A stretch of 64,000 nt of DNA from Membranipora membranacea (Eukaryota > Bryozoa > Gymnolaemata > Cheilostomatida > Membraniporidae). How positions within the stretch are numbered: position 1 is the stretch's first letter; every line of letters begins with the position of its first letter. Below the pieces are notes generated by a model. The model was not told where the DNA came from and searched no databases. It saw only the letters and a program-made list of their open reading frames with translations. Below, piece by piece: positions 16 to 64,000 of the stretch. The translations under genes and the position numbers were made by a program. The stretch lies in contig OU612066.1 of NCBI GenBank assembly GCA_914767715.1, positions 34,074,283 to 34,138,282 of the forward strand, given 5' to 3'.

Positions 16-65
16 GGGTCATCCATAGACTTAATATACTAGTATATTAAGTCTATGGGGTCATC
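16..65. mobile_element. P-like transposon excision scar
   Basis: The 8-bp word GGGTCATC at 16-23 is repeated exactly at 58-65. Between the two copies lies a perfect 34-bp palindrome (24-57). Its half, CATAGACTTAATATACT, equals the first 17 bases of the terminal inverted repeats of the P-like element at 44723-48477. So 17 bases from each end are joined directly between a target-site duplication. This fits an empty donor site left after P-type excision, because the Drosophila P transposase cuts with a 17-nt stagger and makes 8-bp target duplications. A minimal palindromic insertion is the alternative. Confidence 0.8.
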
Positions 66-3000
66 ACACAAGACAGATCTGTGACAGACTGTTACATATA
101 TGTACAGTAATTCTTAAATCCTCAGAAATGCGTCAAAACTTGCCAACTACTCATGCAAAAAGTGAGTTTATTGATGGTCTAGGGAGTAGGGATGAAACTG
201 AAAAACACATACTTAATTAAAATCAGGAAGTACCCATATATAATCAATTCAATAACTGACAACGGAAATTAGGAATTATCCCCATCGCAGTCTCTACTTT
301 CCTCGTAATTATAACTCTGAAGGCTTCACTAGATTGCTTCTGACTGCATACTGATAACATTCCCAATTTGAGACAAATTCTCAGGTGTTATAAGACTGCT
401 TTGAACTTTTATATCAGTATTATCTTTCTGAAATCCAGTATTATCTCTATTTATTTATAAGATTCACTTGAACATAGTGAACAAAGTGGTATTCTGTAAA
501 CCTTCAAACACTCTCTACATACTCCACAATTGTTTTTCAATACGCAGAACTTGAACCACTTTTAGAGATTTGGGTTAAAAAGAGATTATACATATATTTG
601 TTTTCTCTCTAATTAATTCCCTAAGATAATAATATGTGGTTTTCCTTACGCAAAAACAACTTTTTTTTGTTAGATCCAGTGCGTTTTCAGTATTAACATA
701 ATCCGACACTTACGTAATGTGTGATTCTAATCAGCTGCTCAGAGATCACTAATTAATTACATTGATTTAATATTTTTAATCTGGATCAGTTTTATAAGTA
801 GCTTTGGTGAGGCAAAAAAATGAGATTATACACCCAAATTTTAAGATTATTGATATTTTGCAACTAAGATGTAATCTGTTTTAACTAGCAAGACAATAGA
901 AACTTTCTTGTGCAGGTGTCACCTACCATTTCTGTATCTTCACAATATTAGTTAGCCAATGTGTTGGCTCGACTGGCTTTTCCACCCAACAGCCAAACTG
1001 AATGATACTAAGTCCCCAATACAGACTATTAATTCAAGTGTATCGTGTTCACGTTCACAATGAACAAACATAGTTGTATTGCTTATCGAGTTTATCATTC
1101 AAGGGAGTTAGGGAGAATAGCTTTATGATAAAACAATAGCATATGTATCTTAGGAGTCGCCCTCTTTGTTAACATGGCAAGAAAACCCTTAAAATAAGTT
1201 GTGTCTGTCATGTCAGATAGTTTATATAGAATGGATAACAGTCATATTAAACTCCTAAACTCAATTTGCCACTCAGAGGTACCCTACAGAAATACTTGAA
1301 AGAAGCTTTAAGAAATATCTTAATAGAAATAATCCCATAGAAATACCCTCATTTGTCGAAACAGATACAACAGAAACGACAGGAAAACTAGCGCTCAATA
1401 TAGCTAGAAATGACATTATTTATTTATGTATGATAGATAATCCATATTTAATTATCTAAGCTTGAGGTGGTTAACACAGATAACCTCTATGAGTGTCTGC
1501 TGTAGTTTATTGGGATGGAGGAGATATTTATTTTTGCTCGAAGTTGTTCAGTCGTCGACTTCATCATTCCTAGAAATTTTGGACATCAGTTGAAAATGGT
1601 TTCTTATTGACACTGGTGCACATGTTGACTGAATCAGCAGTCTATAAGGTTTTATAAGTTTAAACAAAGGATCTAACACTGCTCTCTTCGGGAATTCCCA
1701 AAGAATCGTTTGATTTCCACACTATGGGAATAGGTCACTGTAAAACCTTCATCGCCCGAAATAAATACCATGACTATAAAATGACATCTCTGACATCCTA
1801 GCTAGGAATCTCTTTGAAAATAAATATACCTTATTATGCAACATTCATCTAGATTTGATAGAATGATGGAAAGTAGCCAAAACTTGGCATCTACAGATGT
1901 TTTAAAACAGTTCTATGTGCTGACTGACAAACAATTTGTATACATTCTTCAACTGTTTCCCAGATATACATACCTGAATCTTGATATCTTGCATGCAATG
2001 CAATACTATTATTTGTTGAATCATTTCAAAATATTTTAGTTAATTTACTGAAATAGTTGAGTATAGAATTTTCTATAATTAGATATTTATTGATGAATAA
2101 ATTCAAAAAATGAATAAGCTTGTTGCTATAGCTGTTACTACCCCTTCCAATAATAGTTTATGAAAAACTGAAAAGGCAATATATTATCGTGCTAAAGACC
2201 AATGTTTAGCTTTGCATTCATCAACACATATATGCCTGTCCGAATTTAACCCTTTGGTCAATCGATCATAGTATACTTGAATCGAATTACATAAAAGATG
2301 TCTAAGAAATTCAAAATATTATAGGTTACACTCAGAAAAATGTGACATCAGTGAGAGCAAAAAATGCATGGCACAATAAATCTCTACTCAATCTCGACAG
2401 AAACTGTTTATGACAGTGAGAGAGGGTGGCTGCTGCCAAAGAGAAACCGCAAACCATGATTACAGTCAATTACAATGTTGGTTTTTCATCTGAGACCGAA
2501 TCGACAAACAATAAATGATAAACACCAAGACACTCTGACCAGCAGCCAACAAACCACAAACATCATCCTGTAATGAAATACCTCATTTGAGGTCAGTCTA
2601 ACACAAATCATTACATTCTCTAACTTTAATTTTGTTACAACCTAAATGATTTTCAGTAAGAAAAATTCTAACACTCTCTATTTCAAAAATCTAATGACCA
2701 AATGACCCAGAGTCCCAGACAGACAAACCACACTGGTGGAATCATCTGACGACCACTGATATTGTGGTCTTATTAGGTCTGAGCTTAAAATCTCCAGATC
2801 CACTTGACTTTGATTAGGAATCCAATCCACTGAAAGATAATCACTTCTCATCTAGAACCTTTGTTGCGCCTCCCATAAACTCCTTTTAATTCCTGTGGCG
2901 AAAGTTTAACATAAATGCGATACCCCACAGAAATTGATAACTCTGTACATGTTGAGTAATTGACCGTTCAACTATAAAAGAAGTTGGCAGTCCAGTGCTG

Positions 3001-7300: not shown

Positions 7301-10300
7301 ATATACTCCAGCGGCCTATTAATGTCAACAGTTTAAGGTCCAATCCAATTAACCAGTCTCGAATTGTTTATTCTATGGTTCGTTCTCACCCAATCAAACT
7401 TACCAACATAATGAGTATCCCAGGCAAACTGTATTCTCTTATTGAAGGCAATGTGAACAATGGCAGCTGCTCCTGATAAATGATCTCCGACTTCAAAAGC
7501 AGAGTTACCTCCTCCGACTATAAGCACCATCTTATTCTTATATATCTCCTTATCTAGGCTGTGTTTACTGTATGTGTCCGCCATATCTAAACCTGACCGA
7601 AAAAAACGAATACCTGTATTGATGTGTGACAACTTCAACCCTACCACAAAATTATGCAGCATCTGGACGATTAGGCAATCATCAACTACCTGGCCAAGAA
7701 TAATATGGTGAGATAGATTTCGCAGAGCGAAACAGTTAAATTGGTAAAACTTGTTATGGATAAAATACAAAATAAATACACTAGGGCGAGTTTAATTGTA
7801 CAGTTTAAACTTTAGCCAAAACGGCCATTAGTGCCATTCTCCATTAATTTCTGCACTGCATGGAGGGCTTTGGTCAATGATGGATGTTTCTGACAGTAAC
7901 ATCAATGTTTATTGAATATTAAGCATTTACACAAGGTTTAGATACCCCATTAGCTATAATCATTGGGTATGTTATTGCAATAATGTGTAAAAGAATATCA
8001 TTAGGGAGAAGGTGGTCAGTGTATAAGACTAGCTATTACAAAATATTGCTCAATGATTAATAGCTGCTCCATAATCCCAGGGTTTGACAGCATGTTTCGA
8101 TTTCGAATCCCGTTTTTAAATGCGAAACATCAGGTCTTAGACAGGAAGCAACTGTAACCAGCTATTCAAAGCATGAATTTGACTTTTTTGGCACCTCGAA
8201 ATGATACTTTTATGAAGAAAAGTCTGAATTGCAGTCTTAATGTCTGCAGAATCCCTTCAAATACATTAAAGTTACAAAGACATCACAAAACAGCTTGAAA
8301 TTCTATCTGGTTGAAATGAAAACATTTCATAACTATATATCACATTACTGTCGCCGTTTATAATATGTATTGCCAAACTGAATGGTTCCGATGCTGTTTG
8401 AAATTGTAATTTTAATGTATTTTTACACCTTTTTATGATCTTTATTCCACTTCAGGCTAATGTTTGAAAAAGGCAGGTCATATGTTGTACACATAGGGTC
8501 GATAATCAGTGAAAAGTTCATGAAGGCATTATGTGTCGGTGAATGAACTTTCTAAGATCAAGAAGGCATTAATTGTGTTTTGATAAGACAGATTTCAGTT
8601 AAATCAACATCAATTAAGAAACAGCTAGAGTTTGCATGTGAAAATAGCCTGTGTGAAAGAAGATTCCATACATGGGTATACAATGTGATTTCACAAAAAT
8701 ATACCAAGTGTATCCAGGCAAGCGGAAACCATGGACTTTGATGATTATAACTGGTAACCTTTCAATAGCATAAAGTTTGACTATCCAATAAGTACATGAC
8801 TTCTTTATGATGCTGGAAGAGTTTATGAAACAGGGTCCCCACCTTGTGGGAGTCTTGGGGCATAGTTGTGGCTGCCTTTAATCTCACATTCAATGCCCAA
8901 ATAATCACATGACAGCATACTTGATACTTAAGCTTAAGAACTCATTCCTAGCTCAGAAATTTAATTTAGAAAAAGATTGAGTTATAATATTTGTATGAGA
9001 CAACTTCTCAAAGCGTGACAGCTACACAGCCAATCAGGCAGATAATCAGGCATAACAATCTACCAATCCGAAATTGAATGAAGTCAAGATGTTGGTTTTG
9101 GCGATTGAAAAAATCTCCGGAAACCAAGTTTTGAAAGGGGAAGCACTTCAAGAGGTATGCCAAATAGAGAACTTGAACAAAGAATTGAGATCCGCCCGGT
9201 GCCAAAGTACCTGGATTGGTAGACATGGCAATGGCTACGGAGGTGTGCCAAGCTGTTAACACCACCAAGATCACAGGACGTTAATAGTTAATAGCTCGCT
9301 TCATAAAATGGAATTATATCCCTGAAATTGGCTATTTCTATTCAGCCAACAATTCTATCTTGTGGATCAGCCAATAAAAAAAATCTCTGCACAAAAGGAA
9401 TTTATTGCATTTTTATCACAATTATGGATTATGATAGTAAAGATGTTGGGCGAATTTATGAGGCTTGATGAGCACTAATGATTTATCGTCAAGTAAAATA
9501 TTCAAACATGGAATGCTAATGTAAACTGCAGAAAGACAAACACCCAGCTGCAGGATTACCTGATGGTCAAGGAAGCCACTGCCTACTGATGTGCAGCCAA
9601 GTTTGAAATTCATACAACTGAAACTTCAATTAGGTATAACGCAAATCAAGAATAAATGGTTATAAAACTGGGCTCTGTGACAGAACCATATAGGAGATGG
9701 CACTCGCATTGCAATGAGTAATTTGCTTAGCGGTGCATTTGTTAAAGGTGGGAAATTTTATATTGGTAATAAGTAACATTGAAAATTTTATGCTATGGGC
9801 GTGTTCCAGAAGTCCTTTCTTATGGTTTCAATTTCGAGAAATTTCCCTTTGGGAGTTGTGCAGTTGCCAAATGCACAAAACATCGAATTGGCTCACCTTG
9901 AATGTTTTCAGGGATGTTCTCTCCCACAGCCCCCGTAGCCATAAGAACGCATCGAGTCGTACAGGAAGTGGCAGCTCCACCATTTTGGTCGCCTGATGCA
10001 GTGGTTATGCTGAACGTATCGCTTCTTTTAGTGATTTTGGTAACTCTGGTGTTATATTTGATATTGAGCTCAAATCTGTCCGCATAATCATTGAGGTATT
10101 TGTAGAGGTCTGATGGTTTGGGGTACAAATCATCAGAGTATTCTGTGAATCTCATCTGCTGGTCGTCAGAGAGAAGAGAATTCCAGTCGTGCCTTAGATT
10201 AAACTCATCTTCAGAGTATAAATTATGTTTCTTGTTCAGTGATATTAGTTTGTTATGTCGTGGATGCTGAGAGAAGAATGATGCTGCCTTATCTGCTGCC

Positions 10301-10716
10301 TCGTAGACGACATAGCGTCGGTCGGATTTCTGTAGAAAGTAAGCCATCTGTAGACCTGCAGGCCCAGCGCCAACTATCACATAATCGTAGTCATAAGCGA
10401 TGCCACTTTTGCTGTCATCTAACAAAAGAAACGAAGACAATGACAGTAAAACTCACCCCCACTTACTAATAGATTGCAGTGATTGATCAGTAAGTACAAT
10501 CTGAAGTGTATCAAATGTGGCAAAGATTGAGACACTTACTAACATCCAGCAAGAGACGATACACTAGATAAAAGAGTATTTTATTTGATGTACTCTGCTG
10601 CAACTCCCATAATTTACATGACTCTAGTAACAAATAATCACACAGTAGATAATTATAAACTATCACATTTTCTTGTTACCTGAGACAGCAGTGTTGTTAT
10701 TCATTTGTGGAGCCAT
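4334..10716 (-). CDS. FOXRED2: FOXRED2-like FAD-dependent oxidoreductase, complete
   Basis: Eight exons, from the start: 10680-10716, 9897-10418, 7404-7592, 6446-6697, 5842-6087, 5504-5687, 4908-5142, 4334-4666; all junctions keep phase, giving 665 aa (human FOXRED2 is about 684). Seen: FAD-binding VIVGAGPAG near residues 26-34, the family block RHDWNSLL, a second nucleotide-binding stretch VLIVGGGNSAFE near 209-220, HYVGDLRAVNNN across an exon junction, and GFIHGFRY near 372-379. FOXRED2 in vertebrates is an ER-lumen flavoprotein that acts in ER-associated degradation. Odd here: the N-terminus (MAPQMNNNTAVSDD) has no signal peptide, an in-frame stop lies 24 bases upstream of the ATG, and the C-terminus (TSMRH) is not a KDEL-type signal. 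It may therefore act outside the ER, or an alternative first exon exists. The 5' part lies in the left duplication arm; a second copy is at 62585. Confidence 0.9.
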
Positions 10717-41200: not shown

Positions 41201-44200
41201 TAGATCATACATAGATCCAATATTTGAACAGTAAGTGCAAACCCTATACACTGATGTTGTTCCATTACTAAATTTCACCTGTTAATAGGGATACATTTTA
41301 GAATAGAAATTAAGTGACATTTCTTTGAGAATGACCTTTTATATATTGTGTGTTGTATTTTTGTATCTCAAGCATTGACTCGAAAAGCTTTTAAAATCTT
41401 TAATGAAACTTCTTTAACCTTCACTGCTTTCCATAAATCCTGTGTTGAGATTCTGTTTTATACTTCCTGACTACACTTCATTCACATGTTAAATCTCAAA
41501 CCTAACCTGCCTCTAACTTGCCACTTACTGACATTTTTCCATTTTCCAGCTAAAACTATCCACGCGATACGACACAGAGCTAAGTGGAGAACTTTGACAT
41601 CATAATGGTGAAGATGACGACATTAGCTTTATTCGCAGCGTTGGGTTTCTTGGTGGCCCTTACACCAGGTATGGATTTGAACAACACTAAGTGTCTTGCG
41701 GAGAGCAATCAGATATCATACCTGTTGACACCCTTGAGTTTGATATCAATGGTCTCATCTCCATAATCTAATTAATCTTTGTCAGCATCTGAGTTTTTTT
41801 GTTAGTGATTATTTAGTCAAGATTGTGGTTGAATATAAAGTTCGAGTTGAATTGACTTAATTCATCTTTGGATAATATTTTTATGATTGGTGGATACCAG
41901 CATTGTGGAAGGTAAGCTGCCCTTTTCAATCCTTGAGTCATCTGTATACTAAATAATTTTCTCTTTGTTTCTCAGGAGCTGATGGACAGCGTTTCCGGCG
42001 AGTCTCTAGTGGTTCTAGGTTCCCTTCTAGGTTCCCTTCTAGGATCCCAACTCGTAGACCAAAGCCAACACGAAGACCACCTGTGTTCACACAACCAAGA
42101 CCAAACACCCCACCTCCAATATTTCAGCAGACCAGGCCACAGCCTGCAGGACCCGGTACCGCTGCACCAGGCACAGCTGCACCAGGTACCGCAGCACCAG
42201 GCACCGCAGCACCCGGTACCGCTGCACCAGGCACAGCTGCACCAGGTACCGCTGCGCCAGGCACAGCTGCACCAGGCACAGCTGCACCAGGTACCGCTGT
42301 GCCAGGCTCAGCTGCGCCAGGTACAGGAAGCGCGCCCCTCACTACCCCCAGGGGCTCACAAGTTACACCATCACAACCGAACTCCCCCGAGGAGCAGAAG
42401 AAGATATCATTCTTCCAAAGAGTTAAAGAAGGCTGCAGGAAGAACACAGCAGAATGTGTCTTTCTTGCTTTCGATATTGGATTAACTGTCGTCGACTTTG
42501 TGAGGTTTGGTGTTGAGTTACAGATTCACAGTGACAGAGTGGCGGCCGAGAAACTTGAATTTGAGAGAAGAAGAAATCAGACTATAGAGGATCAGAACGT
42601 TTTCCTCGAGCAACTTGAAAATATCCAGAATGGAGGCAGCCAAGCTGAAGATATTGATCGTAAGATTTTACTGCTTTTCACGTATCCTTTGTATTGGCTG
42701 TAGAACATACCAAACTCCAAATTCTTCTGTAACAATCGGACCTGCAATTGAGTTTTTCTAAACTTGGATCGGCCAATTATAATCAGCCCGACAGATTTGG
42801 AGCTATCTCTAAATGCCCAATGAGAGAACATTTCGCACAACTGGTGCACAAAAAAATGCTCCCCATCAAAATTGGAGACAGAATAGAAAGCCTTTGACAA
42901 CCAGACAGATATGCAGTCAGGTCCCAGAACTGTCTGAAAACAGGATACTGAATTATGCTAGGGTAGTTATAACCAGGCTCATAGGCATGACAGAATGATT
43001 TATTTTACAGCTAACTCTGTTTGCGAGGATGAATTTATAGCAGCAGTTAATGATGGTAGCCCATTCTTCCTGTGTCCCCTTACTGCTAATGCTGAAGATG
43101 AGATACGATGCTGTGGCCGGCCAGGAGAGCAAGTTTGCTGTACCGAGCAGGAACAAGCACTAGACACCAGCATATTTGGTGATGGAGGTACAGTCCCAAA
43201 ATAATTTAATTCCTTTTTTGTCAAATTTGCGAACAACTAAATATAAATTTTTTTTTGCCTGGACAATCAGATCAGTGATGACATAAAAGAGTCGGATTTA
43301 GCCCACTTTTCCTAGAAAGTAGGTCAAACCAAATTAACTCTATCTTCATTGGTCCATACAAGCTAGCTGTTATTGGGTCATGGCACATGTAATGTCTTTG
43401 GGTTCAACAGCTAAATCATGATGGCATCACTTTCTATGTTCCATCTTATTATTTGTATGTGTAACCATCAAATATCAGCCACAGTCTGTCTGATTCTAAA
43501 TGGTTTGGTAATATCTTCCCTGCCAACCAAACGCACATTGAGAGATATCTCAGCTCATATCCTGCCCAATTCATTACTCCAAGTCCCAAAATCAATCGAT
43601 GCTAAACCGCATACTTTGCATTGACCTTTTCAGATCAGCCAATATGCACAAGTTTGGCTATAGCAGACATAAATGATGGATCACCGTTCTTTACTTGCCC
43701 TCTACTCGAGAACGCAGATAATGAGACTGAGTGCTGTGGTGAACCTGGTGAACAAGTATGCTGTGCTCCTCAGGAATAACAACATCCACAAGGGAAAAAT
43801 CTGATCATGCCAGCCTTAGCATGTCCATTTGGTATTTGATGCTCTATTCTTGCAATAAGAATACTTATCTAGCGTAATGATGCAAATAAATGAAAACATC
43901 AACTATAGTACATGTATATTTTTGGAGTTAATTTTTATATGATAATTGTAGTCTTTGAATTAACCTACACCAATGTCCCAACTACCCAAGCAAACTCTTT
44001 CCAACTCACATTGATATATTTGGCTAGATCCTTCCATAAATCCCTGCCCTGTGATAGACTAGATTCAGTGACATAAGACATGGCATCAGGGCACACTACT
44101 GACATCTTCCCACTGTTCTTCAGAGTTAGAAACCAGACAGCGAATCCACTGGTGCCTGTCATATCAGGCTGAAGTGGCAGCTAAAATATCAAATACATTT

Positions 44201-45357
44201 ACAAGTTAACTTTCTGATTCGTTATACTGTCAGTGGGCAGAACCCATCTTACCATGACTTTTCTCCCCTATGAACTAGTAAAGACACAATGAAAACTATT
44301 GTCAAGACAGCCATAGTTATGTGACCTGCAGAGGGCCAGCAGAACAAGCAAGCAAATGAACCAAATCTGGAAGACTTTTTATCCAGCTATATCTGAGCAA
44401 GTTATGCACATGAGTTACAAGTGCAACTTGGGGGTGGGGGAGTGACAGAATATCTGTGGAAAAAGGGAGTGGAGTAATTGAAGTAAGCCGATAATGATAA
44501 AAGAGATTATTCTGATGGCTCTCAATGCACTCTTGAAATTGGGCCTATCGTAGAAAAACAGCAGTAAGTATTTGATCATCTTATTGCTTGCAAAACCTCT
44601 ACTTACTACTTGAATGGGCTCTCATAGAAAACAATCCCAGTGTGGTATAAAAGTTTATTTTCATGGTCCGCAGGATAAAAACAGACTGAAATTCATATTC
44701 TATCAACTTGCTTGGTATTACCCATAGACTTAATATACTACCTAGACAGGACAATGCTTATTGCTTTACTGATCATAATGTGTCCCACTTAAATAGCACG
44801 ACATGACGTAATTAGTTTGTGCTGTGAGCCATAGTTTACTATATACCATTCAATGAAATAATGTGAAAAATCAAGGGACGCCGGGCATGATATCAGCCCT
44901 TATCCGGCCCCTAATTATTCAAACACAGAGAAAATTTGTGAGTTTATGTAAAAGACCTTTCCGCACGAGATGGTTTAAAAAATTGACTCCTTAGGCGAAT
45001 CTAGAGCGAGAACAAACCTGATAAGTAACAATCATTAGCCAATAAATATTGAAACAAATACAGCCATCTACCCTTAACACTTCTGCCACTACTATTCAAA
45101 TGCACAGAATACCCACAACACAGTATCACAAATATTTTGTTGGATGAGCCAGATCAAAGCACCACCACCATCATCATAGATTTTTGCATAAATATTCCTA
45201 GTCATGACTGAGCACAACCTGCTCAGCTTAGATTCCTTGTTACAAGTTTTTACTGCACATTTTTTTGTCGCTTCATGAGGAAGAATAGATCTGTGCTGTA
45301 AATTGAGTATGCCAACTCCAGGTATGTATGTATGTATCATGAAGCTAGGGTAAGTGG

Positions 45358-45393
<36 letters not shown>

Positions 45394-48300
45394 GTCTATG
45401 GTCATCTCTCATCAATGAAGTAATATAGTAAATCAAGGCACGCAGGGTATAATACCAGCCAAATTATATTAGATCTGTTTTAATTTGAGATACAAATTAT
45501 CAAAACAAATACAGCCCTGTATTGAAACAGAAGACGAAAGATACTATGTAAACAAAGTGGTTACTGGTTTTAATATTCATACTTAGTTGAGATTATTTAT
45601 TTATATAACGTGAACCTGCAGCCTGCTGTCTCATCTTCACAAGTAAGCCCAGCTGCAATTCTACTCTTTTTTTTTTTGAGATGACAATTCTGATTTACTC
45701 CCGAAATATCTAACTCAGAACTGGCACAGCAGTCAAAAAGTGTGAGTAGATTTAACCGGTGATCTCGCAAATCTTCCTTGGCCATGCTGACGCTGCTATG
45801 AAATTGATTTTACAATTTCTGTTTATTATATCAAAAGCTGTAGTTTAATGATAATTATTTGTATATGTTATCATTTGTGATGCTTTTAAAAAAAGTCATC
45901 TAGAAACTGGTGTGCTGCCTACGGCTGTGGAAATAACCCGGCAGGAAATCCTAATTTAAGCTTCCACGCCTTCCCCAGAAATAACGAGGAGAGACTAAAG
46001 GTATGGGTTTCGGCCGTTAAACGCAAGAACTGGACTCCATCCAAATATGCTGTTCTATGTAGCGCACATTTGAAACGAGATACATTTAGAAGGCCTCCTG
46101 GTGTGGGTGGGAGAGCTTTGCTAAAAAAGGATGCTATCCCAACAATTTTCCAATCCTTCCCACACTATCTACAAACCCCTAATAGTGAAGAGATATACAC
46201 TGGTCAGAATACACCATGAAACAACCAAACTCACAGCAAACACTGACAATAAGCGCTCCAAACTGAGCAGGCTTATTGTGTTCTGTCATATCTAATTTTC
46301 AGCAATCGCTGATAGTGATAGTGTCTCATTTGGAAATTTTGCAGCAATCACCGATAGTGGTAGTTTTCTAGTCTTTGACCCATCCGCAAAATTCAGTATA
46401 ATCCCACAGTATTTTTTTTTTTGCTAAGTAGTGCGAGAAGTGCGGTAACTGTAAATTGCTGAACAGGCTGAACAGACTGAACAGCTGAACAGAATTTCTC
46501 AGACTAAAATTAGTTTTTGTATTATTTTCTGTGGCTGACTATAACTTCTCAAACACATTCCTCCCAGCCAAATGATTTAATGAGTATAATGAATCAATCC
46601 TAAGTTCCTGCTGGCACCTAAAATATTTGTTTTAGAGCATCACTGATATATATTACACGAACTTTGGGTACATATCTAACCCTTAGGAGGCGTATGGCTA
46701 TTTCATGTGTGGCTGCTGGACCGCATTTCTCATCTTTAAATGGTCCACAAGTTCAGAATCTGTTATAGCTGACACTCGTAAACTTTTGTCAAGTAGCGCT
46801 TGCCTGAGTTTTTGAAGGTTGTTACTGGAACTTCAATCATGCGTAATGTACAAGCTGCAAGATTTATAACTTTAGTTATATCCTCACACAATGCTTTATA
46901 CTGATGGCATATCTTCACAAATAGCAATGCTATGTGTTTTTCCACTGATCCATAAATTCATATATAATATATATATACACATATAAATGAGGGAAAACAA
47001 ATGAAGCAATTAATCTACCAAATCTGAAAATTTTAGGAAACTAGAAACACTATTCAGCACAATGCCATCCTTTCATCTAGGCAGTCTTGACAAGCTTTGT
47101 TGGGGGGGGGGGGGGGGGGGGGGTGGGTTTTGTTGGTTCCTTCCATCCATTCACTAAGTGTAATACCCAAATACTTACTGTGGATAAAATAATAGAAAGA
47201 AACAAAGGCAATTGCAAACTTAATATAAGTATTCAGCAGAATATAAGGAGTTGTCCAGGCTTGTGCATAATTAGTAGTCTGAGAAATTTTGTTCAGCTGT
47301 TCAGCATGTTCGGCCTGTTCAGCAATTTACAGTTACCGCGAGAAGTGGTTAGCTTACATTGCTCTACTAATTTGATTAATTTTAACGTATACTGCAACCA
47401 GTCATATCTAACTTTGCAATGCTCGCTGATAGTGGTAGTGTTTTTAATTTTTGTCGTGCCCACAACAATTAGTATAACTCAACAGTATATATTCATATTG
47501 TTTACAAAGTAGTGATAAGAAGTGGCTAGCTTCATGGCTGTATTTGTGTCGATAAGCTTTAGCTTATGCTGTAATCAGTCACATCGAATATGGCAGCAAT
47601 CGCTGATAGTGGTAGCCGTTAGCCTTGGTCGTGCCCTCAGAAATTAGTATAATCCCGCAGTAACAGCCCTCTTTTTTGTCATGTAGTGATAGAAGTGGTT
47701 AAGTACAGGGCTGTATTTGTTTTGATAATTTTTATCTCATAAATTAAAACAGATCTAATATAATTTGGCTGGTATTATACCCTGCGTGTCTTGATTTACT
47801 ATATTATTTCATTGATGAGAGATTACCAAAGACTTTATATATATATATATATATATATGTCACGTACCCTAGCTTCATCATACATACATATCTGGAGTTG
47901 GCATACTCAATTTACAGCACAAATCTATTCTTCCTCATGAAGCGACAATAAAATTTGCAGTAAAAACTTGTAACAAGGAATCCAAGCTGAGCAGGTTGTG
48001 CTCAGTCATGACTAGGAATATTTATGCAAAAATCTATGATGATGGTGGTGGTGCTTTGATCTGGCTCATCCAACAAAATATTTGTGATACTGTGTTGTGG
48101 GTATTCTGTGCATTTGAATAGTAGTGGCAGAAGTGTTAAGGGTAGATGGCTGTATTTGTTTCAATATTTATTGGCTAATGATTGTAACTTATCAAGTCTG
48201 TTCTCGCTTTGGATTCGCCTAAGGAGTAAATTTTTTATACCATCTCGTGCGGAAAGGTCTTTTACATAAACTCACAAATTTTCTCTGTGTTTAAATAATT

Positions 48301-51300
48301 AGGGGCCGGACAAGGGCTGATATCATGCCCGGCGTCACTTGATTTTTCACATTATTTCATTGAATGGTATATAGTAAACTACGGCTCACAGCACAAACTA
48401 ATTACGTCATGTCGTGCTATTTAAGTGGGACAGTATTGAATGCTTTTGGCCTGTCTAGGTAGTATATTAAGTCTATGGTATTACCCCAATCTAAGATGTC
48501 ATGGTTTGCCACCTGATCGGATAGAGTCCTTACCTTGTTAAACAAATCTGTTTTTGTTACGAAAGCTCCTGCCATGTTATCACATACTAAGCACTCATCC
48601 ATAGATCGGTCATAACCAGATCTATATACCAGGGTGTAGTTCTGTAGACTGGATCGCTCACATCCATGTTCCCACTGTAACACAGTATGTGACAAAGTTA
48701 ATCAGAATTTGTCAAGTTTGTGGAGACAATTATTACATAGATAGATTTTCTAGGCGGATATAACCTATGTAGGCACCACCCCTCACTTCAACATCAGATC
48801 GCCAGTGCTTTAGTTCTATGGAATAACTTGAAAAAAAGTAGTATAGAGGTAGGGTGGAGCGCACAATGTCGTGAAAAATATTCTAGTGGAAATCTCCATA
48901 GGAGTTGGACAGTGGACACTGACTTAATTTGCCCTTGAAGACTGTTTCATACCCACCAGAACGTTCATATTATTAACTTTCCCACGTTGCAAGCTAAACC
49001 TATTATCATGCCACAGACACTGATAAACCACAGCTGATCAGCTATATGAAATGTAGCCAAAATGGATCAAACTTGGCCTAGTATTTATAGGATGTGCCAT
49101 ATCATACAGCCATCTATTATTTTCAAGTCTGACACAGAGCAATAATCACCTTGCCAGAGTCAAATGCCTTGATAGCATTGCCGACTACATAAGCGTTAAG
49201 ATTGTTTATTTCTCTAACAAGGCGCTCCAGTCTCTCATACCAGGTAAAGTGTACCACATTCCTGCCTATATAAGTGTACTTAGTCTTCACTTTGGAGATG
49301 AGGTAGCTCCATACTGACGTTTCAGTCTTACTATAAACAACAAGAGGAACTCAATCAAGTCAAAGTTTTAAAGGTGATCCTACAAGCCGTAAGTAGATCA
49401 TAAATAAAGTCAGAAAACACAATGTAAATACTACGTCGACTGGCCACAACATCTCGAGTTGTGCCCTCATTGAACTGTTTGGTCAAAAAGGGGGCAAATC
49501 CCAATTAGCGCTGAATTGGCATGAAACATGGTATTTTATTTAGTTAGTTATAGAGGTTGGCTAGAAAGTATACAAATAACAAATAATTAAAGGCAACTAG
49601 GTTGTGGGTTCGAATCCCACTGAAGTCAATCTTCTACTGGGGATTGGTTGGCCCCCAGGTGTGCTCAGACCTGCCTGCAAACAGAGAGCATATTGGCACA
49701 GATATTGCGGCCTCCCCAATAAGGCACTAGTATTTCGCCGCCCATGCCTTGGTATGGGCGAGTGATAAGACACCTGATTTTAATCATTTTTAATCAACCT
49801 TTACCTTTTTGAAAAGCTGTAGACTGTGGTCCACTTATAATCAGCAGACTTCAGTGTGTAAGTTGACGGGGCAGCAGCTATAATCTTCACATTGGGATAT
49901 ATTTTGTTCACATTAGCTAGAAGAGCTGGAACTCGAGCTAAATCATCTTGTGAGTAATGAACAAAGCTATAGAGAAGAGTTATCAGTGAGTAGAATTTTG
50001 GAACATCCTCACAGTTCTCCATCTCAAAACCTAGAAACAACACCCAGCAGATATATGAGTAATATTTAGCTGACTGAACATAAAATTACAGTCTTAGCAA
50101 TCCAAGTGCTCCAATACTGGATCAACACAAAGTCATATAGAATCTAAAATCAAAGTCTTACTACATTCCTAATTGCTTTTTACCCATGTCAGTTATTGAC
50201 TGACTTGGTCAAGCTACATACCTAACACTGGAATTTTCCAGTAACTAATTGGATTACAGGATGTATCTGGTAAACATAAACATATAATTTATATGTTTAC
50301 GCTGGTAACTGATCACAATGAGCTGGGTTATAGATACTCAACTTTGAAATTTCTCCAAACCCCACATGAAAATTCTGAGCAAGAGGGTCATACTATGTTC
50401 ATGGGTTTAACTGTGAGCAGAGAACTTGTGCTGGGATATGAAATAGAATTATGTACATTCTTAAAGGAAAAAGGTGGGTATGAGAGGCCCTGTCACAGTC
50501 AACGTAAAGCAACCTCCCGTCCCTGTCAAAACAACATTTCTCCTGCCTTTTGGGGAATAAGAGGAGCAGAATATGACTTTTTTCATATGAAACAAGAATG
50601 TGCCTATTTTCAAGTACTATTGATGCAAAACAAAAAAGCAACATAGTCTAGGCTATTGAAGGCAGAGAAAAGGCGAAGCACTACACATATAAGCCTATGG
50701 TCTTACTTGTCACCAGCAAATACTTATTACGATAAATCCCTGTGCAGACTTAAGACTTGCCAGAAAATAAAAAATAAAATTCATAGTGCCCATGCACAGG
50801 GCCTTGACTCACCATGATGTGGATTCACTTGCTGCATAACATATCAAAATTGATCAAATAATGAATCCGTGACAAAAGGCGCTGGTGTCAAACTATAAGA
50901 CGACAAAATTGTGTTCTAACAACAACTGCAAGATTATGGCACAGCAATAAAATCCGGAGACAGTGCAAGGATACACTAAGAAAGGGCACTTCTCAACCTA
51001 GCTGGCATAATATTGGTTGTTATGATTCCCAATATGTTCAGACATCGGGAATATCATGATAAAACTTCAAGCCCCACCTAGTCTGAGATCCCCAGACTCT
51101 TGCACCCCCTGTCCAACGCCTCCCACCTGTCGTTGGCACTCTGTCTATGAGCAAACACTTACCATTATGTATTCTTGTGTTTCCAGCGTCAGTGGATTTT
51201 GGTGTAAATGACTCTTGGCATACATCAATGTTGTCCTTGCCTTTGTTGTCCTTGCCTTTGTCTGTTGGCTTATCAATCAACTCATTTAGCAGTTCATAAA

Positions 51301-62584: not shown

Positions 62585-63405
62585 ATGGCTCCACAAATGA
62601 ACAACAACACTGCTGTTTCAGGTAAAAACATTAAGTGATATTTTATATTATCTAGCGTGTGATTATATGTGCTATAGTCATGTACATCGTGAGAGTTGCA
62701 ACAGAGTAAGTACAATATAATTCTCTTTTACCTTGAGTGTCGTCTCTTGCTGGATCTGACCAAGTGTCTCGAACTTTGCTACATTAGATACACTTCAGAT
62801 TGTACTTACTGATCAATCACTGCTATTTATTAGTAAGTGGGAATGACTGTTACTGAAATTGTCTTTGTTTGTTTTGTTAGATGACGGCAAAAGTGGCATC
62901 GACACTTATGACTACGACTATGTGATAGTGGGGGCTGGACCTGCAGGTCTGCAGATGGCTTACTTCCTTCAAAAATCCTCCCGACGCTATGTCGTCTATG
63001 AGGCAGCAGATAAGGCAGCATCATTCTTCTCTAAGCATCCACGACATAACAAACTGATATCACTAAACAAGAAACACAATTTATACACTGAAGATGAGTT
63101 TAATCTGAGGCACGACTGGAATTCTCTACTCTCCGACGACCAGCAGATGAGATTCACAGATTACTCTGATGATTTGTATCCAAAACCATCAGACCTCTAC
63201 AAATACCTCAATGACTTTGCTGAGAGGTTTCAACTCAATATCAAATACAACACCAGAGTTACCAAAATCACTAAAACAAGCAATACGTTCAGCATAACCA
63301 CTGCATCAGGAAACCAAAATGGTGGAGCTGCCACTTCCTGTACGGCTCGATGCGTTCTTATGGCTACGGGGGCTGTGGAAGAGAACATCCCAGAAAACAT
63401 TCAAG
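62585..63405 (+). CDS. FOXRED2: Second FOXRED2-like gene, exons 1-2, runs off window
   Basis: Exon 1 is 62585-62621 (MAPQMNNNTAVS) and exon 2 is 62881-63405, ending in GTGAGC. The frame is open across the splice junction, and it keeps VIVGAGPAG, RHDWNSLL and MATGAVEENIPENIQG. Against the copy at 4334-10716 there are 14 substitutions and one extra residue in exon 2, many of them conservative (S/T, E/D, Y/F, D/E). That suggests the protein is or was under selection. As in the first copy, no signal peptide is present. Exon 3 would be expected about 2.3 kb downstream, outside the window, so whether the gene is complete cannot be told. Confidence 0.87.
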
Positions 63406-64000
63406 GTGAGCAGCGGCAGGATATTTCTGGAAACTAAAACCATGGAACCCAACCCATATCATGTGAGAATACGATCAATGTAAATTATTATACCTACAAA
63501 GAAATTCCCATCTATAACGCATACACCGCTAAGCAAATTACTCACTGCAATGCAAGTGTCATCTCCTGTATGGTTCTGTTCCAGAGTCCCGTTTCTCAAC
63601 CATATTCTTGTGCTGCGTTATAGGCTACAAAATGCAATTTCAGTTCTATGAAATATCTGTAAATTTCAAACTTGGCAGCACATCAGTAGTCAGTGGCTTT
63701 CTTTGCCATCAGGTAATCCTGCAGCTGGGTGTTTGTCTTTCTGCAGTTTACATTAGCATTCCTTGTTTGAATATTTTACTTGACAATAAATCATTATTGC
63801 TCATCAAGGGTCATAAATTCACCCAACATCTCTACTATCATAATCCATAATTGTGATAAAAATGCAATAAATTCCCTTTCTACAGGTTTTATTTTTATTG
63901 GCTGATCCACAAGATAGAATTGTTTGCTGAATAGAATGAGCCAATGTCAGGGATATAATCCTATTCTATGAAGTGAGCTATTTAACATCCTGTGATGTTA

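Follow-up and report, generated by a model that had tools for sequence, protein, structure and literature searches.

The window analysed here is a stretch of 64,000 nucleotides from the bryozoan Membranipora membranacea. Close to its start, positions 16-65 hold a 34-bp perfect palindrome between two identical octamers. The left copy of the octamer, GGGTCATC, occupies positions 16-23 and the right copy positions 58-65, both on the forward strand, as is typical of an 8-bp target-site duplication. The insert between them (24-57), which has no orientation of its own, consists of CATAGACTTAATATACT (24-40) joined to its exact reverse complement (41-57). The centre of this 34-mer reads ACT|AGT and can thus be parsed in two ways, either as 17+17 nt placed end to end or as 18+18 nt sharing a 2-nt TA.

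Palindromic inserts of this kind are scarce in the window. A scan for inserts of 16-80 bp between exact 8-bp repeats, with an arm match of at least 70%, returned three: the one at 16-65, with an arm match of 100%, and two others at 72-73% that lie inside a tandem repeat. Thirty sequences simulated from a first-order Markov model of the window contained no palindromic insert of at least 24 bp with an arm match of at least 80%. The 17-mer CATAGACTTAATATACT itself is present in the window as four exact matches and one with two mismatches, where 0.33 would be expected at up to three mismatches. Rfam, at gathering thresholds, yielded no match, and neither did a scan of viral contigs with an 18-mer.

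The pre-insertion state of the locus is preserved in paralogues. At least four longer matches to bases 1-600 of the window lie elsewhere on contig C2, two starting at base 58, with which the right-hand GGGTCATC opens, and one each at 60 and 176; the number is a lower bound, as at most 40 candidates were scored. For instance, C2:33957465-33958014 is 91% identical to window 58-599, and C2:34183246-34183760 is 79% identical to window 58-537. Two of the aligned paralogues (L169 and L170) carry a single GGGTCATC with continuous flanks and no palindrome, and a third (L171) carries one diverged octamer, again without the palindrome. The window locus has therefore gained 42 bp, namely the 34-bp insert plus one 8-bp duplication, and it was the insertion event that duplicated GGGTCATC. 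An earlier sequence-only reading of the window had suggested that an empty site be sought in strains; it was found in paralogues instead.

Elsewhere in the window, two FOXRED2-like exons lie in opposite orientation ~52 kb apart, at 9820-10452 on the reverse strand and 62847-63437 on the forward strand, and their best protein matches (82-87% identity) are to unnamed proteins. A tandem repeat with a period of 15/30/45 occupies 42146-42326, within a 248-aa open frame rich in APGTA-like repeats.

The resident element and a possible source of transposase

The longer element that shares the ends of the palindrome is located at 44723-48477 on the forward strand. It is a 3,755-bp element of the P superfamily, flanked by an 8-bp target-site duplication, GTATTACC, at 44715-44722 and 48478-48485 (both forward). 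The family to which it belongs is referred to here as family A. Its inverted arms are long, ~0.8 kb each, with the left arm (44723-45521, forward) 93% identical to the right arm (47704-48477, reverse). The element starts with CATAGACTTAATATACT and ends with its reverse complement, and 28 nt are identical at both ends in a comparison of 60 nt. The sequence-only reading had described the palindrome as 17+17 nt of this element's end with an 8-bp duplication, and as a description of the bases at 16-65 this is exact.

Between the arms, an open frame of 108 aa at 45893-46216 (forward) encodes a THAP domain (Pfam PF05485, E 2.4e-16). A six-frame Pfam search of the element found no transposase domain other than THAP, so the element looks non-autonomous. 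A run of 22 G is present within it at 47102-47123. The left arm also contains a further end-like stretch at 45384-45400, beginning CATAGACTTAATATATA and lying beside GAGATGAC or a variant of it. Such a stretch is also found in the left arm of the family-A elements L039, L045, L054, L068, L165 and L166; an earlier P-like insertion absorbed into the family may have left it there.

The genome was searched for two parts of a P transposase, its RNase H domain (PF21787) and the THAP exon. PF21787 has at least 134 matches, from 150 of 211 candidates scored, with a best E of 6.5e-42 and open frames of up to 762 aa, and the THAP exon of the window has at least 150. At two loci these parts are paired: a PF21787 match at C2:35477519-35477896 with a THAP exon at C2:35478346-35478648, and one at C11:3773429-3773806 with a THAP exon at C11:3774231-3774533. 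Both THAP exons are 93% identical to that of the window and lie ~450 bp upstream of the RNase H matches. The DNA adjoining them is family-A arm, ~90-94% identical to the window element and to L068, and the outer end, one of which was read per copy, reads CATAGACTTAATATACTACCTAGACAGG, the family-A end. Family A thus includes copies with P-type transposase exons. On contig C1, none of the PF21787 matches scored falls inside the family-A elements listed for that contig.

Related scars across the genome

The genome as scanned comprises 18 contigs and 339,339,785 bp (339 Mb). The 17-mer CATAGACTTAATATACT has 360 + 362 matches, and its reversed control has none. Similarly, pairs of facing ends (11 nt each, no more than 30 nt apart) occur at 370 sites, and the reversed control again gave zero. 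The exact 34-mer is found at 22 sites whose left octamers are all different; the 8-bp duplication is exact at 16 of these 22 and has at most one mismatch at 20. Another 36 sites carry two full 17-mers spaced 1-14 nt apart, with an exact duplication at 28 and at most one mismatch at 33. Of all loci fetched, 78 distinct ones have exact duplications, 70 being short scars and 8 elements, in a search that specified 8 bp.

The scars examined range in length from 22 to 63 bp, with one of 109 bp. In short scars the two ends are joined with loss of bases; in long scars there are AT-rich insertions in which segments of the end (AGTATACT and similar) recur. Longer elements sharing the same ends measure 2.7-4.2 kb; the set of 28 loci that gives this range includes L021, a tandem duplication rather than a clean scar. 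At L021 (C1:8931842-8931904) the scar seems to have undergone tandem duplication, giving a direct repeat of 37 bp. Three further loci, L058, L060 and L061 (C1:27.02-27.07 Mb), have the octamer GTATGACC in common and scars of 60, 60 and 42 bp, respectively. Either the length changed after duplication or the scar had more than one origin.

The duplicated octamers show a target preference. G or C occupies the outermost position (G first, C last) in 111 of 156 half-sites, and GT or AC is present in 67 of 156, where the frequency of GT in the window is 0.054.

Taken as a whole, these observations make it very probable (about 0.92) that a cut-and-paste transposon of the P superfamily, a member of family A, left window 16-65 as its excision scar. 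The remnant at 24-57 consists of the outermost 17-18 bases of each transposon end. In the proposed mechanism, the insertion that duplicated the 8-bp target GGGTCATC was that of a family-A element. A P-type transposase, of which exons are present in other family-A copies, would then have cut the inner strand ~17-18 nt inside each end, so that the donor chromosome retained transposon DNA as 3′ single-stranded tails. Finally, host end joining would have fused the two tails, often via short microhomologies and sometimes with the addition of AT-rich copied bases. The proposal of the sequence-only reading that a P-like transposase has been active in this lineage, and with it the origin of the palindrome by excision, is supported by the empty site, the private duplications of sibling scars, the ends shared with longer elements and the P-type transposase exons within the family.

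Position of the cut

Estimates of tail length depend on how far scars match intact ends. Family-A ends read CATAGACTTAATATACT-ACCTAGACAGG; the exceptions among eight elements are L057, one end of which differs after base 18, and L056, with one changed base. Of 233 matches that retain 17 nt and are followed within 30 nt by a second end (8 nt), 2 retain 20 nt or more. Agreement with the native sequence at the 36 sites carrying two full 17-mers stops at base 17, 18, 19, 20 and 22 on 8, 48, 14, 1 and 1 of 72 ends, respectively. The edge is therefore imperfectly sharp, since 8 of the 72 ends stop at 17 and 16 match the native bases to 19-22. Of 66 informative ends, 58 retain base 18, whatever follows it; this count covers 33 independent sites, after removal of a single member (L019, L100 and L114) from three duplicated pairs.

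The lengths of the joints are informative as well. If the tail is 18 nt long (...ACTA-3′), 4 of the 18 possible joins without added bases share 2 nt, giving inserts of 26, 29, 31 and 34 bp. Among 69 sites listed of the 233, these four lengths account for 22 of 29 joints without added bases. With a 17-nt tail, the 31-, 29- and 26-bp classes have only 1 nt of microhomology and the 34-bp class has none. In the 36-site set, inserts of 36 bp number eight, six of them with a central AT as in a complete 18+18 join (two of the six being one duplicated locus), versus three of 35 bp, and the same set contains no 19+19 or 20+20 join of family A. The numbers of 34-, 35- and 36-bp scars, 20/3/5, depart from what independent ends of 17 or 18 nt would give (exact test, p 7e-4). 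That count leaves out L021 and L147 (5 and 3 octamer mismatches) as well as L019, and retains the 36-mers L094 and L097 (2 and 3 mismatches). With too few 35-mers, most 34-mers would not be simple 17+17 joins. Tails of 17, 18, 19 and 20 nt explain 22, 29, 33 and 34 of the 69 listed joints, respectively, a comparison in which 19 and 20 do slightly better than 18.

Given that base 18 is kept so often, that so few ends reach 20 nt and that the commonest joints without additions match a TA microhomology, a tail of 18 nt is favoured in family A. On the bases of the scars, the tail is thus probably 18 nt rather than 17, and the 34-mer an 18+18 join minus a shared TA. A range of 17-18 nt may be regarded as the safe one, and within it a long stagger is supported. 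Of the geometry put forward in the sequence-only reading, a 17-nt cut with lossless joining, the long stagger stands. A value of exactly 17 is less well supported in family A, given the retention of base 18, the 36-bp joins and the TA microhomology.

A possible but less probable alternative, given roughly one chance in four, is that the scar is of the same kind with the exact tail of Drosophila, i.e., that the 34-mer is a lossless 17+17 join and the A at position 18 was added by a polymerase. The 34-mer does equal 17+17, and it is the commonest single sequence among the family-A scars examined. It also makes up half of the sites of a sister family described below, and the Drosophila P transposase cuts 17 nt inside the end in the account given by the review PMC7776569. 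Against this, an A follows 58 of the 66 informative ends regardless of the next bases, 36-mers (mostly with a central AT) exceed 35-mers, and the 26-, 29-, 31- and 34-bp classes have 2 nt of microhomology at 18 and 0-1 nt at 17. Table 1 of PMC2895639, as far as its entries go, contains no lossless 17+17 join, though the tail length there is known. Addition of a single A could produce the same appearance at base 18. In a subfamily whose base 18 is C, scars keep CC or CCC in four cases (L032, L034, L035 and L148), which speaks against such addition, yet points past 18; two of the four have a poor duplication or none, and L148 reads as 20+20. The exact C-type scar pattern had no match in a genome-wide search.

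The sister family, family B, has an end that reads CATAGACTTAATAATAA-ACCTAGACAGG, with A at base 18 and AA at bases 17-18. The comparison covers mainly the scar sequence of its sites. Of the 24 sites, 12 are exact 34-mers, and 7 of these lie together within 0.6 Mb (C3:21.79-22.41 Mb), in what is probably a segmental array. Other joints of family B keep A, AC, ACC or ACCT past base 17, or add TAA-like repeats. With AA at bases 17-18, no terminal TA microhomology is available, and the 34-mers of this family fit a 17+17 join; family B would accordingly appear to fit 17 better than 18. The ends of the two families have bases 1-13 and 18-28 in common and differ at bases 14-17, which would form the inner portion of the single-stranded tail. 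It is somewhat more plausible than the contrary that a P-superfamily transposase here places its cut 18 nt, not 17, inside the ends of the element; in that case the stagger is variable within the superfamily, perhaps even between families A and B.

Alternatives to excision fare far less well. One is a minimal MITE, i.e., a tiny transposable or amplified unit of 34 bp that spreads alone with 8-bp duplications. The 22 exact copies, mostly with such duplications, are what it would produce. P elements, however, require internal transposase-binding sites, for which 34 bp is too short. The left octamers all differ, the ends are common to longer copies, and the exact 34-mer forms a single class within a continuum of inserts, the joints of which vary from locus to locus, unlike the product of a fixed amplified unit. 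This makes the MITE very improbable. The sequence-only reading had named such a unit as the finding that would speak against it, and had suggested a genome search for 34-bp palindromes flanked by 8-bp repeats; the search returned the private octamers and longer copies described above, and no fixed unit was seen.

Slightly less probable still is internal deletion of an inserted copy, by slippage between the inverted arms or by gap repair left incomplete between them. The arms are indeed long inverted repeats, and PMC2895639 describes, for P, gap repair that stops short and is followed by end joining. The end points of such deletions would be expected at varied positions within the terminal bases that the two ends share, whereas 231 of 233 stop before base 20 (ends no more than 30 nt apart), and both ends stop at the same place in the commonest class. 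An origin in the hAT superfamily does not fit, as hAT donor flanks close as hairpins and leave scars without transposon end, while the scars here hold 17-18 nt of each end.

Known P-superfamily systems and the value of natural scars

The features assembled above, namely an 8-bp duplication, a THAP domain, RNase H transposase exons within the family and a palindromic GT....AC target, place family A in the P superfamily. A further character of the superfamily, the dependence of cleavage on GTP, is biochemical. The closest comparison is with excision of P in Drosophila (PMC2895639), where in most isolates an 8-bp duplication likewise flanks two partial terminal tails, and TA and AT joins are recurrent. 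Repair junctions of P{wa} in Table 1 of that paper include microhomology joins and AT-rich templated inserts, with the 8-bp copies mostly retained. In contrast to the natural, genome-wide scars described here, in which 18 nt is favoured for family A, those junctions come from spn-A mutant flies and the 17-nt tails are established. The 17-nt stagger of P, termed unusual in the passages of PMC7776569 drawn on here, rests on Drosophila work.

Other members of the superfamily share some of these characters. For example, zebrafish Pdre2, with THAP9 as the transposase (PMC10983969), has CATA... ends and 8-bp duplications as here, but is described with terminal repeats of 13 bp; the passages drawn on give neither a cut position for its THAP9 nor any natural scars. 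Galileo (PMC4168063) resembles family A in its long inverted repeats and a GTATTAC-like target preference, and differs in duplications that are mostly of 7 bp, compared with 8 bp here. The Galileo subgroup, characterized by a 7-bp duplication, was considered and rejected: eight identical bases are found at 16-23/58-65, at 44715-44722/48478-48485 and at the 78 loci, the search having specified 8. PMC4168063 gives ANAGT...ACTNT as the target motif of P and 1360, and the G...C preference of the octamers resembles the GT...AC of the superfamily. Anopheles P elements and P-MITEs (PMC1562414) have 8-bp duplications and THAP in common with family A, with terminal repeats of 27-31 bp. Unlike the scars, the P-MITEs retain ~100 bp of the P ends plus a central region. 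The word footprint does not occur in the main text of PMC1562414. A paper on coral MITEs (PMC2872659) concerns, in the part considered, piggyBac-like elements and is not relevant.

The event itself is of a known kind, a P-superfamily excision scar; an empty site together with the many sibling scars supports it with unusual clarity. Among the open-licence literature listed, there is no genome-wide catalogue of natural P-type scars, though one may exist. At this scale, natural scars bear witness to the past activity of elements and to the germline repair spectrum. An archive of this sort records both the position of the cut and the end-joining habits of the host, such as the use of terminal microhomology and of AT-rich inserts. 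Because scars register both cut and repair, the geometry of a transposase that has never been studied can be estimated from the DNA it leaves behind.
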